The position numbers and the translations under genes were made by a program. Below, in pieces: positions 32,854-41,248 of a stretch of 64,000 nucleotides of DNA. Source of the stretch: Marinobacter sp. S6332 (GTDB lineage: Bacteria; Pseudomonadota; Gammaproteobacteria; Pseudomonadales; Oleiphilaceae). Within the stretch, counting starts at the first letter, position 1. Each line of letters begins with the position of its first letter. The notes under the pieces were generated by a model that saw only the letters and a list, made by a program, of their open reading frames with translations, did no database searches and had not been told where the DNA came from. Location: contig NZ_JALKAP010000004.1 in assembly GCF_023016045.1 (NCBI RefSeq), positions 62,001 to 126,000 on the forward strand, written 5' to 3'.

Positions 32854-33519
32854 ATGACACAAACAATTATCGTCGCTGATGACCATCCCCTGTTTCGGGC
32901 CGCCCTGAAACAGGCGGTCAATCAAGCAGTACCTGATGCACAAACCGTAGAAGTCGACAGCATCAAGGCACTCCAAGCGTCGGTAGATTCGCACCCGGAT
33001 GCAGATCTGGTTTTGCTTGATCTTAATATGCCGGGTGCCCACGGTTTTTCCGGGTTGGTGTTTATGCGGGGGCAGTACCCCGGCTTACCCGTGGTGGTTG
33101 TGTCTGGCTCTGAAGAGTTGCAGGTAATGCGACGTTCCATTGACTATGGAGCGTCTGGCTTCATTCCCAAGTCGGCGCCGCTGCCAACCATCACAGAAGC
33201 CATTCGGGCTGTGCTGGAAGGTGATGTTTGGCTCCCCGAAGGCGTTGCAGACAAGCTTGAACGCATGCATGCCGACACCACGGATTTCTCTGAAAAGCTC
33301 GCGTCACTGACCCCGCAGCAATTCCGAGTTCTGGGTATGCTGGCGGAAGGTCTTCTGAACAAGCAAATTGCTTACGATCTTGAGGTGTCTGAGGCAACCA
33401 TCAAGGCACACATCACCGCGGTATTCCGCAAGCTTGGGGTTCGCAACCGTACTCAAGCGGTGATTGCGATACAGCAGATGGAGATTGATCCAGCGGACCA
33501 GTCGTTGTCTGGGAGCTGA
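32854..33519 (+). CDS. LuxR-family response regulator, ErdR-like
   Basis: A 221-residue two-component regulator: receiver (about 4-120, IIVADDHPLFRAAL, phospho-Asp in LLDLNMPGAHG, lysine in FIPKSAPL) followed by a LuxR-type HTH (about 150-212, LTPQQFRVLGMLAEGLLNKQIAY and EATIKAHITAVFRKLGVRNR). In Pseudomonas the ErdR protein next to acsA turns on ethanol and acetate oxidation with the sensor MxtR/ErcS'; the position 40 bases after acs suggests the same role. No sensor kinase is adjacent. Confidence 0.85.
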   Translation: MTQTIIVADDHPLFRAALKQAVNQAVPDAQTVEVDSIKALQASVDSHPDADLVLLDLNMPGAHGFSGLVFMRGQYPGLPVVVVSGSEELQVMRRSIDYGASGFIPKSAPLPTITEAIRAVLEGDVWLPEGVADKLERMHADTTDFSEKLASLTPQQFRVLGMLAEGLLNKQIAYDLEVSEATIKAHITAVFRKLGVRNRTQAVIAIQQMEIDPADQSLSGS

Positions 33520-33539
33520 GGTTCAGTAAGTTAGGAGAG

Positions 33540-33724
33540 CGGGCAGGGGAGGTGTTCCCAAAACACGCTGTGAATACCTCCCTGTACGCTCGGCTCCGCC
33601 TTTCACTGCTTATTGCTCCTGCGTCGCAGTGAAAGTCCTGGACTGGCCGTCCTTGGCCAGCCCGTGAAGTGCTTTGCACTTCACCCAAGGCTCCGCACGG
33701 TTTTGGGAACACCTCCCCTGCCCG
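33540..33724 (-). repeat. Structured intergenic repeat, copy 1 (long form, core on minus strand)
   Basis: A perfect 25-base inverted repeat (33540-33564 and 33700-33724; arm starts CGGGCAGGGGAGGTG) encloses 135 bases. Inside are three more perfect hairpins: 33601-33609 with 33626-33634 (9 bp), 33643-33648 with 33655-33660 (6 bp), and 33664-33672 with 33676-33684 (9 bp, TTT loop). On the minus strand the segment 33600-33562 starts GGCGGAGCCGAGCGTACA and matches the core of copy 2 at 35 of 39 positions. The element begins 20 bases after the erdR-like stop and reaches the end of the convergent dehydrogenase gene region. It could terminate transcription in both directions. Confidence 0.9.
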
Positions 33725-33747
33725 ATCCGGCATTCTCGGGAACTCGG

Positions 33748-34731
33748 CTACTTGCTCCCAGCGTATCCAAGGTCCTTATCCACCAGATTGAACAGTTCCT
33801 CACCGCCATGCCAGCGGTCAAAATTCTCCAAAAACTGATCAGTAAGTGCGCGCTTCCACCCGATAAAGTCACCCGCCATGTGTGCGGTCATGATGACATT
33901 GTCCATGTCCCAAAGCGGGTGATCTTCCGGTAAGGGTTCTTCCTCGAATACGTCGAGTCCGGCACCGGCAATTTCGCCACTCTCCAGCGCTGCAATCAGA
34001 TCCTTGGTTTTAACAATCGGGCCTCGGCCAATGTTAATCAGGCGTGCGGTCTTCTTCATGGCCTTGAAGGCTTTCTCATCGAACAAGCCTTCTGTTTGGG
34101 GTGTCAGTGGTGCAGCGATGACTACGTAATCTGCGTGACCTAGCTGATTATATAGGTCGTCGTTACTGTGCACGGCCACAAAGTCTGGATCGTCTGTACG
34201 TGCTGTTCTTGCAATACCGTGAGGTTGTAGGCCCGCAGCAGCAACCAAACGCCCAATCTGTCGGCCGATAGAGCCCGCACCCACTACAAGCACCTGCTTT
34301 CCCGCTGCTCTTTCTGTGTCTCTATGCTTCCACTGATGCTTGAGTTGAAGGCGAATTGAGGCCGGGAAGTCTTTGGCAAACATCAAAATAGTACAGAGCA
34401 CGTATTCGGCAATGGTTTTGTCAAATATACCTCTGGCATTAGTGACTACCACGCTGCTTTTCGTGAGGGCAGGGAACATCAGCGCATCTACCCCCGCGCT
34501 GGTGGCATGTATCCATCTCAATGTGTCCGCACAGCCCCAAGCCGCTTCGAGTGCCTCGGTTCGAAAATCCGTCACCATCATTACATCGGTACCCGGTAAG
34601 GTAGCGCGCAGGGTGGCCTCATCGCTGGCAAAACGCACTTCGGCGCGTGCCCTGAGAGAATCCATGCCCGGAGGTTCCTGCTCTCCGGGGGCAGTGAGTA
34701 CGGTTACAACAGGTTTGTTGCGCTGAGACAT
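33748..34731 (-). CDS. D-2-hydroxyacid dehydrogenase family protein
   Basis: An NAD(P)-dependent oxidoreductase of 327 residues that interconverts a 2-keto acid and its D-hydroxy acid. The N-terminal substrate domain is followed by the Rossmann domain with VVGAGSIGRQIGRLVAAAG (about 150-170), a catalytic arginine in NIGRGPIVKTKDLIAAL, the glutamate region AGAGLDVFEEEPLP, and a histidine in MTAHMAGD (usually TPHxAG). Substrates cannot be told from sequence; glyoxylate/hydroxypyruvate reductases are the closest general type. It is a single gene, divergent from an aminotransferase. Confidence 0.85.
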   Translation of the reverse strand: MSQRNKPVVTVLTAPGEQEPPGMDSLRARAEVRFASDEATLRATLPGTDVMMVTDFRTEALEAAWGCADTLRWIHATSAGVDALMFPALTKSSVVVTNARGIFDKTIAEYVLCTILMFAKDFPASIRLQLKHQWKHRDTERAAGKQVLVVGAGSIGRQIGRLVAAAGLQPHGIARTARTDDPDFVAVHSNDDLYNQLGHADYVVIAAPLTPQTEGLFDEKAFKAMKKTARLINIGRGPIVKTKDLIAALESGEIAGAGLDVFEEEPLPEDHPLWDMDNVIMTAHMAGDFIGWKRALTDQFLENFDRWHGGEELFNLVDKDLGYAGSK

Positions 34732-39902: not shown

Positions 39903-41114
39903 ATGGATTTCAGTATCTCCGAGAAAGGTCAGGATTATCTCAAGCGTGTAAAAGCGTTTATGGCGGAAGAGATTTTCCCGGTTGAAGCCCAGTACCACAA
40001 AGAGCTGGCATCTCTTGAAAATCGCTGGGTTGTGCTGCCCATCATCAAGGAATTGAAGGAAAAGGCCAAAGCCCAAGGCCTCTGGAACATGTTCTTCCCG
40101 GATGAAAAGCATGGTTGCGGCTTACTCAACTCCGACTACGCACTGATTGCAGAAGAAACCGGTCGCAGCTTTATCGCGCCTGAAATCTTCAACTGCAATG
40201 CGCCAGACACCGGCAACATGGAAGTGCTTATTCACTACGGTTCTGAAGAGCAAAAGGCAGAATGGCTGCCCCGCCTGCTCAGCGGTGAAATCCGCTCTGC
40301 CTTCTGCATGACCGAGCCTGCAGTAGCCTCTTCTGACGCCACCACTATGGAAGCAACCGCTATTGTTGAAGGTGACGAAGTGGTGCTCAATGGTCGCAAG
40401 TGGTGGAGCACCGGCATTGGCCACCCAGACTGCAAAGTGGCTATCTTTATGGGTCTTTCAGACCCCGATGCCCACAAACACCGTCGTCATTCCATGGTAT
40501 TGGTACCGCTCGATGCACCGGGCGTAAAGATTGAACGTATGCTCCCCGTATTCGGCGAATACGACGAACCTTACGGCCACGGCCAGGTGCTGTTCGAAAA
40601 CGTTCGCCTGCCCAAAAGCGCCTTCATCGCAGGCCCCGGCCGTGGCTTCGAAATCGCCCAAGGCCGCCTCGGGCCAGGCCGAGTACACCACTGCATGCGC
40701 GCTATCGGCGCCGCAGAGCGCACGCTGGAGTTGTTGGTGAAGCGTTCATTGAGCCGCGAAGCCTTTGGGCGCCCGTTGGCTAAGCTCGGTGGCAACCCGG
40801 ACATCATTGCCAACGCCCGTATGTCCATTGAACAGGCGCGTTTACTGACCCTGAAATGTGCCTGGGCTCTGGACACCAAAGGTATTGCCGGAGCTATTCA
40901 GGAAGTCGCCATGATCAAAGCCGTGATCCCCAACATGCTGCAAACCATTGTGGATCAAGCCATCCAGATTCACGGTGGTGCCGGTGTGAGCGATGACGAC
41001 TTCCCGCTTACCCAACTATTCGCCTATGCTCGTGTATTACGCTTGGCAGATGGTCCGGATGAAGTGCATCGCGCAACAGTTGCTAGACTGGAACTGCGTA
41101 AATACAAAAGCTGA
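39903..41114 (+). CDS. ACAD10/ACAD11-like acyl-CoA dehydrogenase
   Basis: A flavoprotein of 403 residues. It has the ACAD fold (FCMTEPAVASSDATTMEA, FAD-binding RKWWSTGIGHPDCKVAIFMG, RVHHCMRAIGAAERTLEL, and IQIHGGAGVSDDDFPL). The region that holds the catalytic Glu in ordinary ACADs (YEGTSEIQ-like) reads LADGPDEVH, the form I associate with ACAD10, ACAD11 and LvaC. Human ACAD10/11 remove phosphate from 4-phospho-acyl-CoA made by their kinase domain. The matching kinase is two genes downstream. It is followed by a structured repeat and then the first SDR. Confidence 0.85.
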   Translation: MDFSISEKGQDYLKRVKAFMAEEIFPVEAQYHKELASLENRWVVLPIIKELKEKAKAQGLWNMFFPDEKHGCGLLNSDYALIAEETGRSFIAPEIFNCNAPDTGNMEVLIHYGSEEQKAEWLPRLLSGEIRSAFCMTEPAVASSDATTMEATAIVEGDEVVLNGRKWWSTGIGHPDCKVAIFMGLSDPDAHKHRRHSMVLVPLDAPGVKIERMLPVFGEYDEPYGHGQVLFENVRLPKSAFIAGPGRGFEIAQGRLGPGRVHHCMRAIGAAERTLELLVKRSLSREAFGRPLAKLGGNPDIIANARMSIEQARLLTLKCAWALDTKGIAGAIQEVAMIKAVIPNMLQTIVDQAIQIHGGAGVSDDDFPLTQLFAYARVLRLADGPDEVHRATVARLELRKYKS

Positions 41115-41135: not shown

Positions 41136-41248
41136 GGAGCCGCCGGAGGGACGGGTTGATGAAACTGTGCGGAGCCATGGATGGCGGAGCCAAGCGTACA
41201 AGGACGTATCCACAGCGTGTTTCAGCAACCCGTCCCTCCGGCGGCTCC
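41136..41248 (+). repeat. Structured intergenic repeat, copy 2 (short form, core on plus strand)
   Basis: A 30-base inverted repeat with a single mismatch (41136-41165 and 41219-41248; arm starts GGAGCCGCCGGAGGGACGGG) lies between the acyl-CoA dehydrogenase and the next operon gene. The core at 41183-41221 starts GGCGGAGCCAAGCGTACA and matches copy 1 (33600-33562, other strand) at 35 of 39 positions. A second shared motif, GTGCGGAGCC followed by WTGGRTG, starts at 41167. The internal hairpins of copy 1 are absent. The element begins 21 bases after the stop codon and would separate expression of the two genes or protect the upstream mRNA. Confidence 0.9.

Follow-up and report, generated by a model that had tools for sequence, protein, structure and literature searches.

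A dispersed repeat family of Gammaproteobacteria related to YPAL/RU-2, with a predicted three-way junction and candidate CsrA-binding loops

The two inverted structures found in a stretch of 64,000 nucleotides from Marinobacter sp. S6332 (contig NZ_JALKAP010000004.1, positions 62,001 to 126,000; the whole stretch is called the window hereafter) belong to a real and widespread repeat family that is a relative of a named repeat, and the structural and evolutionary facts about this family are firm. The explanation that we prefer, with a probability of about 0.48, is that the family is related to YPAL/RU-2, that its GGA strand would fold into a three-way junction holding a CsrA/RsmA dimer on two CANGGANG loops, and that its arms would stay complementary because one arm serves as template for the other when the DNA is replicated.

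Both copies are located where a preliminary description of the window had placed them (Table 1), and their cores, for which 35 shared positions out of 39 had been claimed, differ by eye at 4 of about 40 positions, consistent with that claim, and are opposite in orientation as described. The arms pair within each copy, and the arm length of 30 given for copy 2 stands, while the arm of copy 1 measures 28 nt and not 25. The three additional hairpins of copy 1 are present, and the ORF list contains the stop codons said to be nearby: copy 1 is 20 nt from a minus-strand ORF whose stop end is at 33748 and also 17 nt past a plus-strand stop at 33519, and copy 2 starts 21 nt past a stop at 41114. The core pattern has 2 matches in the window compared to 0 in 100 shuffles. 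RNA fold z-scores are -11.0 for the minus strand of copy 1, and -9.2 (plus strand) and -9.1 (minus strand) for copy 2, which as a whole element folds equally on both strands.

Table 1. Features of the two copies of the repeat, in coordinates of the window
Feature	Position	Strand	Detail	Basis
Copy 1, long form	33537..33727	- (GGA strand = minus)	191 bp	
Copy 1, low-coordinate arm	33537..33564		28 nt, 27/28 paired with other arm	
Copy 1, high-coordinate arm	33700..33727			
Copy 1, core pattern match	33563..33590	+ (hairpin 1 = opposite strand)		
Copy 1, hairpin 1 loop	33577..33584	-	CAGGGAGG, fits CANGGANG	sequence and motif counts
Copy 1, extra hairpin a (long form)	33600..33635			sequence and fold
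Copy 1, extra hairpin b	33643..33660	-	loop 33648-33655 = CAAGGACG on minus strand, fits CANGGANG	
Copy 1, extra hairpin c	33664..33684			sequence and fold
Copy 2, short form	41136..41248	+ (GGA strand = plus)	113 bp	
Copy 2, low-coordinate arm	41136..41165		30 nt, 29/30 paired	
Copy 2, high-coordinate arm	41219..41248			
Copy 2, hairpin 2 loop	41176..41183	+	CATGGATG, fits CANGGANG	sequence and family counts
Copy 2, hairpin 1 loop	41199..41206	+	CAAGGACG, fits CANGGANG	sequence and family counts

Searching the 4.14-Mb draft genome with the pattern ACRCGCTGTGAATACNTCCNTGTANGCT and up to 3 mismatches returned 46 copies, 22 forward and 24 reverse, which rules out that the core is absent elsewhere; the reversed pattern, used as a control, had 0 matches in the same 4.14-Mb genome. 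Near-perfect inverted arms of 25-38 bp flank all 46 copies (14 of them perfect), which fall into a short class of 38 copies (103-129 bp) and a long class of 8 (185-203 bp). The arms are indeed unlike between copies, as only 11 of the 1081 pairs of own elements exceed the random 99th percentile, which is the chance rate. This includes the 6 own pairs with identical cores, all of which have arms below the random 99th percentile, the two shared core sequences shown among these pairs being 61 nt long. The preliminary description was right in proposing a dispersed family that preserves stem pairing rather than stem sequence.

For the structural alignment, 64 elements were picked for short heads and clean alignment and were read on the GGA strand. 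In the modelled structure, a three-way junction joins the long arm stem to two hairpins, hairpin 2 in columns 15-41 and hairpin 1 in columns 43-65. Among its 1856 cells 93.5% are paired, compared with 63.1% after shuffling and at most 46.2% in slid registers, and two-sided changes amount to 550 cells versus 146 shuffled and at most 144 slid. Such two-sided changes occur at 14 of 14 arm pairs and 9 of 9 hairpin 2 pairs; in the inner stem of hairpin 1, UA and AU pairs changed to CG in 5 or 6 of the 64 elements. The model is weakest at three pairs in the middle of hairpin 2 and at a single pair of hairpin 1, which are non-standard in 18 to 30 of the 64 elements. From the same 64-element alignment, RNAalifold recovered the arms and both hexaloops unaided. 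Single-sequence MFE folds place the GGA of hairpin 2 in a hairpin loop in 165 of the 191 elements with the motif, and that of hairpin 1 in only 68 of 219. All six loop bases are unpaired in 16/219 (hairpin 1) and 17/191 (hairpin 2), a measure which asks too much, since the two outermost bases of the loop are able to pair. The covariation supports the predicted three-way junction.

The sequence CANGGANG is the loop consensus of CsrA/RsmA, and the consensus for CsrA/RsmE reads A/UCANGGANGU/A. Hairpin 2 lies outside the search pattern; hairpin 1 lies inside it, with 4 mismatches allowed anywhere. In 219 elements, hairpin 2 carries exact CANGGANG in 189 cases, ANGGA or AGGA in 19, GGA only in 8 and none of these in 3, while CANGGANG is found in 1.3% of shuffled interiors. 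The GGA of hairpin 1 is invariant (219/219), the variable positions being the two N of CANGGANG. Among the 175 short elements in which it could be measured, the distance between the two GGA is always 22-24 nt, and 23 nt in 157 of them; the long interiors contain a further CANGGANG hairpin in 13 of 17 cases, a mirror-image loop in 3 and neither in 1. By sequence and consensus fold the hairpin loops hold CANGGANG or ANGGA, the latter being given as the CsrA motif in PMC9788540. CsrA is the likely ligand of the loops as judged from their sequence and modelled fold, and its binding is a specific prediction of our analysis.

CsrA (PF02599) was found in 57 of 58 relatives, the sole miss being a genome that is 62% complete, and the own genome has one CsrA, a 65-aa ORF at locus L312. 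As relatives carry CsrA both with and without elements, its presence is not discriminating. The sequestering RNAs of the CsrB/RsmZ type are single genes with many sites. The family resembles these CsrA/RsmA-sequestering RNAs in presenting GGA in hairpin loops and in having more than one site per RNA; it differs from them in that two or three sites per unit are distributed over dozens of loci. Two RNAs, CsrR1 and CsrR2, are described in PMC9788540. The RsmZ model RF00166 gave nothing over the cut-off in 38 genomes.

The element had been considered a candidate not yet named for this genus; the dispersed family is real, yet it is a relative of the named YPAL/RU-2 repeat. De Gregorio 2006 is said to be the primary paper on this repeat of Yersinia. 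The Y. pestis RU-2 (YPAL) sequence printed in PMC2759123 contains both CANGGANG loops, 24 nt apart, and over the head it agrees with the best elements, such as L040 of the own genome, in 52 of 64 aligned positions. For 202 short elements the median YPAL match is 46, compared with 35 for shuffled cores (largest 44). YPAL is described as a single repeat of about 167-168 bp with one family model (PMC2759123, PMC2229807, PMC2267715, PMC2847712) and as mobile, with target duplications and with empty and filled sites (PMC2229807), the target site duplication measuring 3-26 bp; PMC2847712 (Table 3) lists 37-144 copies for 10 of the 11 Yersinia species, Y. ruckeri having 2, and 3 copies for E. coli. 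The present family is like YPAL in being dispersed, intergenic and hairpin-forming, with tens of copies and with filled and empty sites. It is unlike it in that the arms differ per copy and the unit comprises 103-203 bp; a unit of 167-168 bp with arms conserved between copies was not found. No link between YPAL and CsrA was found in the open-licence papers that were inspected, CsrA being absent from PMC2229807, PMC2759123 and PMC5193452.

Membership in an Rfam family was rejected, as no family scored at or above its gathering score in the window and the elements of nine loci gave sub-threshold matches only. Among the latter, RF02770 (Ysr224) accounts for 6 matches on elements at 5 of the 9 loci, the best with 29.3 bits versus a gathering score of 70. 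Ysr224 has the same head in its consensus. Each of its 6 matches lies on the TCC strand and not on the GGA strand favoured here, and the orientation of the Ysr224 model seems to be that of the TCC strand.

The pattern is present in 40 of 58 genomes including the own one. Within the genus it is carried by 35 of 37 genomes (G012 and G020 being without it), with the highest count of up to 59 copies in G010, and outside the genus by 5 of 21 genomes, including G051 with 66 copies. A scan of named genomes yielded at least 119 stretches with the pattern; among the matches listed are Marinobacter, Halomonas, Microbulbifer, Stenotrophomonas, Methylomonas, Rheinheimera and others, taxa which we take to be Gammaproteobacteria. 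Under strict filters the covariance model matches 20 of 299 Pseudomonadota genomes, all 20 from the same class or nearer. A genus-specific element is ruled out by the matches in other Gammaproteobacteria. Plasmid or phage cargo was likewise rejected, one 63-nt query at E up to 0.01 giving one weak Halomonas match among plasmids and none among phages. As a separate observation, G051, with the most elements outside the genus (66), has nine CsrA homologues compared to one in most relatives.

Candidate elements numbered 268, of which 48 with an arm score below 15 were dropped before mismatches and loops were counted. On the GGA strand, the arms of the 220 elements contain 169 G.U mismatches (25 own, 50 relatives, 94 wider), 28 A.C mismatches (4 own, 6 relatives, 18 wider) and 141 others (12 own, 40 relatives, 89 wider), counts which are non-independent since related copies share ancestry; the bias of G.U versus A.C has a p of 0.0001 in the own-genome count alone. 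The GGA strand is the one with the more stable arm pairing in 133 of 219 elements, the reverse being true of 17. One strand is thus marked as the folding strand. The mismatch bias is no proof of RNA, because folding of single-stranded DNA gives a like bias.

With crude codon-score gene calls, 112 of 129 genus-set elements could be placed relative to genes, the side of 17 being unresolved. Co-directional settings comprise 40 sense and 28 antisense elements, a difference that is not significant (p 0.18), and a cruder count in the wider set shows no sense excess either. G.U outnumbers A.C by 25:1 in the sense settings and by 20:5 in the antisense ones. These orientation counts give no backing to a strictly sense role in 3' UTRs. 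From the lack of a significant orientation bias it follows that the folding strand is a property of the element and not of the neighbouring transcript; it also makes a role in cis less likely and does not account for how the antisense copies would be transcribed.

For comparison at orthologous sites, relatives were sampled with 30 of the 41 copies of G022, 20 stretches of G008 and single loci of others. Within this sample, a filled orthologous site of matching orientation exists for 29 of the 47 own elements. The L013 site is filled in 12 of 14 inspected genomes, one of them with another head, and empty in G009 and G023, where 16 bp without arms lie between the flanks; a second empty-site query, L004, gave no clean empty site. 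No clear target site duplication was seen by eye at the single closely read empty/filled site. The inner part can be exchanged between the classes: of 54 orthologous pairs that share orientation and have similar arms, 8 combine a long inner part on one side with a short one on the other. Copy 1 itself, long here, has a short counterpart in G022 that shares all 24 inner arm pairs.

Flipped heads were analysed in single-element pairs, loci with two elements being dropped. None of 24 flipped pairs has arms above the random 99th percentile, compared with 31 of 46 same-orientation pairs, although the flipped pairs taken together slightly exceed random pairs in arm similarity (p 0.0002). With flipped heads and unrelated arms, these look like replaced or re-inserted elements. 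In G021, paired arms at the L013 site (L300; see also L309-L311) surround a different, unrelated head, which has 3 copies, all in G021, among 10 genomes searched. In the gene gap of copy 2 (L031, orthologues L077-L106), several relatives have two elements that differ in head type, the two being opposite in orientation in some cases, and some relatives have none.

The strongest of the competing explanations, which we nevertheless regard as somewhat unlikely, is that the repeat is a YPAL-type miniature mobile element, selfish and without host function. Its loops and junction would then promote its own movement, for instance through folded single-stranded DNA or RNA that some enzyme would recognise. 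This explanation would be in keeping with the mobility of YPAL described in PMC2229807 and with the filled and empty orthologous sites observed here, with the 24 orthologous pairs of flipped head and unrelated arms that resemble re-insertion or replacement, with the lack of a significant orientation bias to genes and with a mismatch bias that fits DNA folding equally well. However, the 29 own elements at orthologous filled sites indicate that many copies are old and yet still paired, there are no recent duplicates with shared arms, no RAYT is present in the genome, and plasmids and phages contributed one weak match and none, respectively. In addition, a selfish element does not account for free N positions exactly as in the CsrA motif.

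The manner in which the arms change bears on the copying part of the preferred explanation. Comparing the 24 innermost arm pairs of 45 orthologous pairs gives 1080 cells, the 45 pairs not being independent since 10 of them involve copy 2. Of these cells 741 are the same, 274 are double Watson-Crick changes and 14 single G.U changes, the rest being 8 double changes with G.U, 42 broken and 1 unpaired alike. In a stricter set of 33 pairs, each having 14 or more of the 24 arm pairs the same (12 of the 45 being left out), 605 cells are the same, 151 are double and 12 single G.U changes, the rest being 1 double with G.U, 22 broken and 1 unpaired alike. The 151 double changes comprise 94 of the transversion type and 57 of the transition type. 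A stepwise route is disfavoured, because transversion swaps need unpaired intermediates, of which few are seen. Arm length differs in 21 of 45 pairs. Equal arm lengths as such are a circular measure, as the arms are defined by mutual alignment, so that only the 6 outer-anchored pairs were used, in which the outer ends and the inner end match and both arms have changed length together.

That the stem is kept, as the preliminary description had stated, is upheld, but its view that compensation means selection for the stem is too simple, the excess of one-step double changes pointing to arm-to-arm copying. Template copying from arm to arm likely fits the double changes better than stepwise compensation does, and template switching is the proposed cause of the one-step double changes. 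Such switching is described for RNA stems in PMC8794818, which also reports loop inversions. The template-switch hairpins of that source likewise show one-step double compensatory changes; its examples are rRNA stems and new microRNA hairpins, whereas here the stems are of 25-38 bp and belong to dispersed bacterial repeats. Head flips with kept arms, which template switching predicts, were found in none of the 24 flipped pairs, so that the elements are in this respect unlike the hairpins of PMC8794818. Of the two ways to explain the double changes, arm copying is the better, although one of its predictions failed.

The other of the two, restricted to the arms, is that ordinary point mutation together with strong selection for paired arms suffices, and that no template copying takes place. 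In its favour, one strand tolerates G.U and rarely has A.C, and in 19 pairs selected for similar arms the arms are 88% identical compared to 77% for the adjacent flanks, suggesting that the arms are constrained. Double Watson-Crick changes, however, are about 20 times as frequent as single G.U changes, 94 of the 151 doubles being of the transversion type, and both arms changed length together in the 6 pairs mentioned above, so that we consider point mutation without copying a somewhat unlikely account of the arms.

A barrier at transcription ends or mRNA 3' ends, in which a long hairpin after the stop codon would halt exonucleases or polymerase from either side, would be favoured by the gene setting, since a gene stop codon lies 10-40 nt off in 54 of the 112 placed elements and 34 elements are located between convergent genes compared to 10 between divergent ones, and a long hairpin would function in both orientations. 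It is improbable nonetheless, as it has no need of conserved GGA loops, of a fixed spacing between them or of a strand-specific mismatch bias, and the right-hand ends, inspected by eye, are without a general T run. A REP/BIME-type palindrome moved by a RAYT transposase, a link that had been suggested as a check on this element, is hardly credible: REP elements are also small, palindromic and intergenic and lie near gene ends, but PMC3733652 gives them short conserved stems of 5-13 bp with a GTAG or CGTC tag, in contrast to the long unique arms seen here, and Y1_Tnp (PF01797) has 0 matches in the own genome (G000) and in the element-rich G022, G008, G009 and G024, these five genomes carrying 46, 41, 36, 30 and 48 elements, respectively.

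Returning to the preferred explanation of a CsrA-holding junction with copied arms, the summed copies might act as a decoy (sponge) for CsrA. In its full form this would be a chromosome-wide CsrA sponge of scattered heads with 2-3 loops each, in which the arms, as a socket, stay at their site and record the copying while the heads swap sites, a picture that we offer as speculative and, on balance, doubtful. If the loops do bind CsrA, repeats that have been called mobile in Yersinia would constitute, in many Gammaproteobacteria, a large set of places on the chromosome for a global regulator to bind. Independent of the CsrA reading, dozens of 25-38-bp stems per genome, together with their orthologues in numerous species, provide a large bacterial test set for the origin of compensatory changes in RNA stems.

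Two minor observations concern the borders and the arrangement of the units. Just outside the arms, on the GGA strand, weak motifs of approximately CTCCAAAGTT before and approximately GCACCAAA after the element are possibly the ends of the unit, the flank motifs CTCCAAAGTT and GCACCAAA not being exact repeats. At G245:C1:94430-95646, six matches of the model lie on one strand with a spacing of about 227 bp, forming a tandem array.
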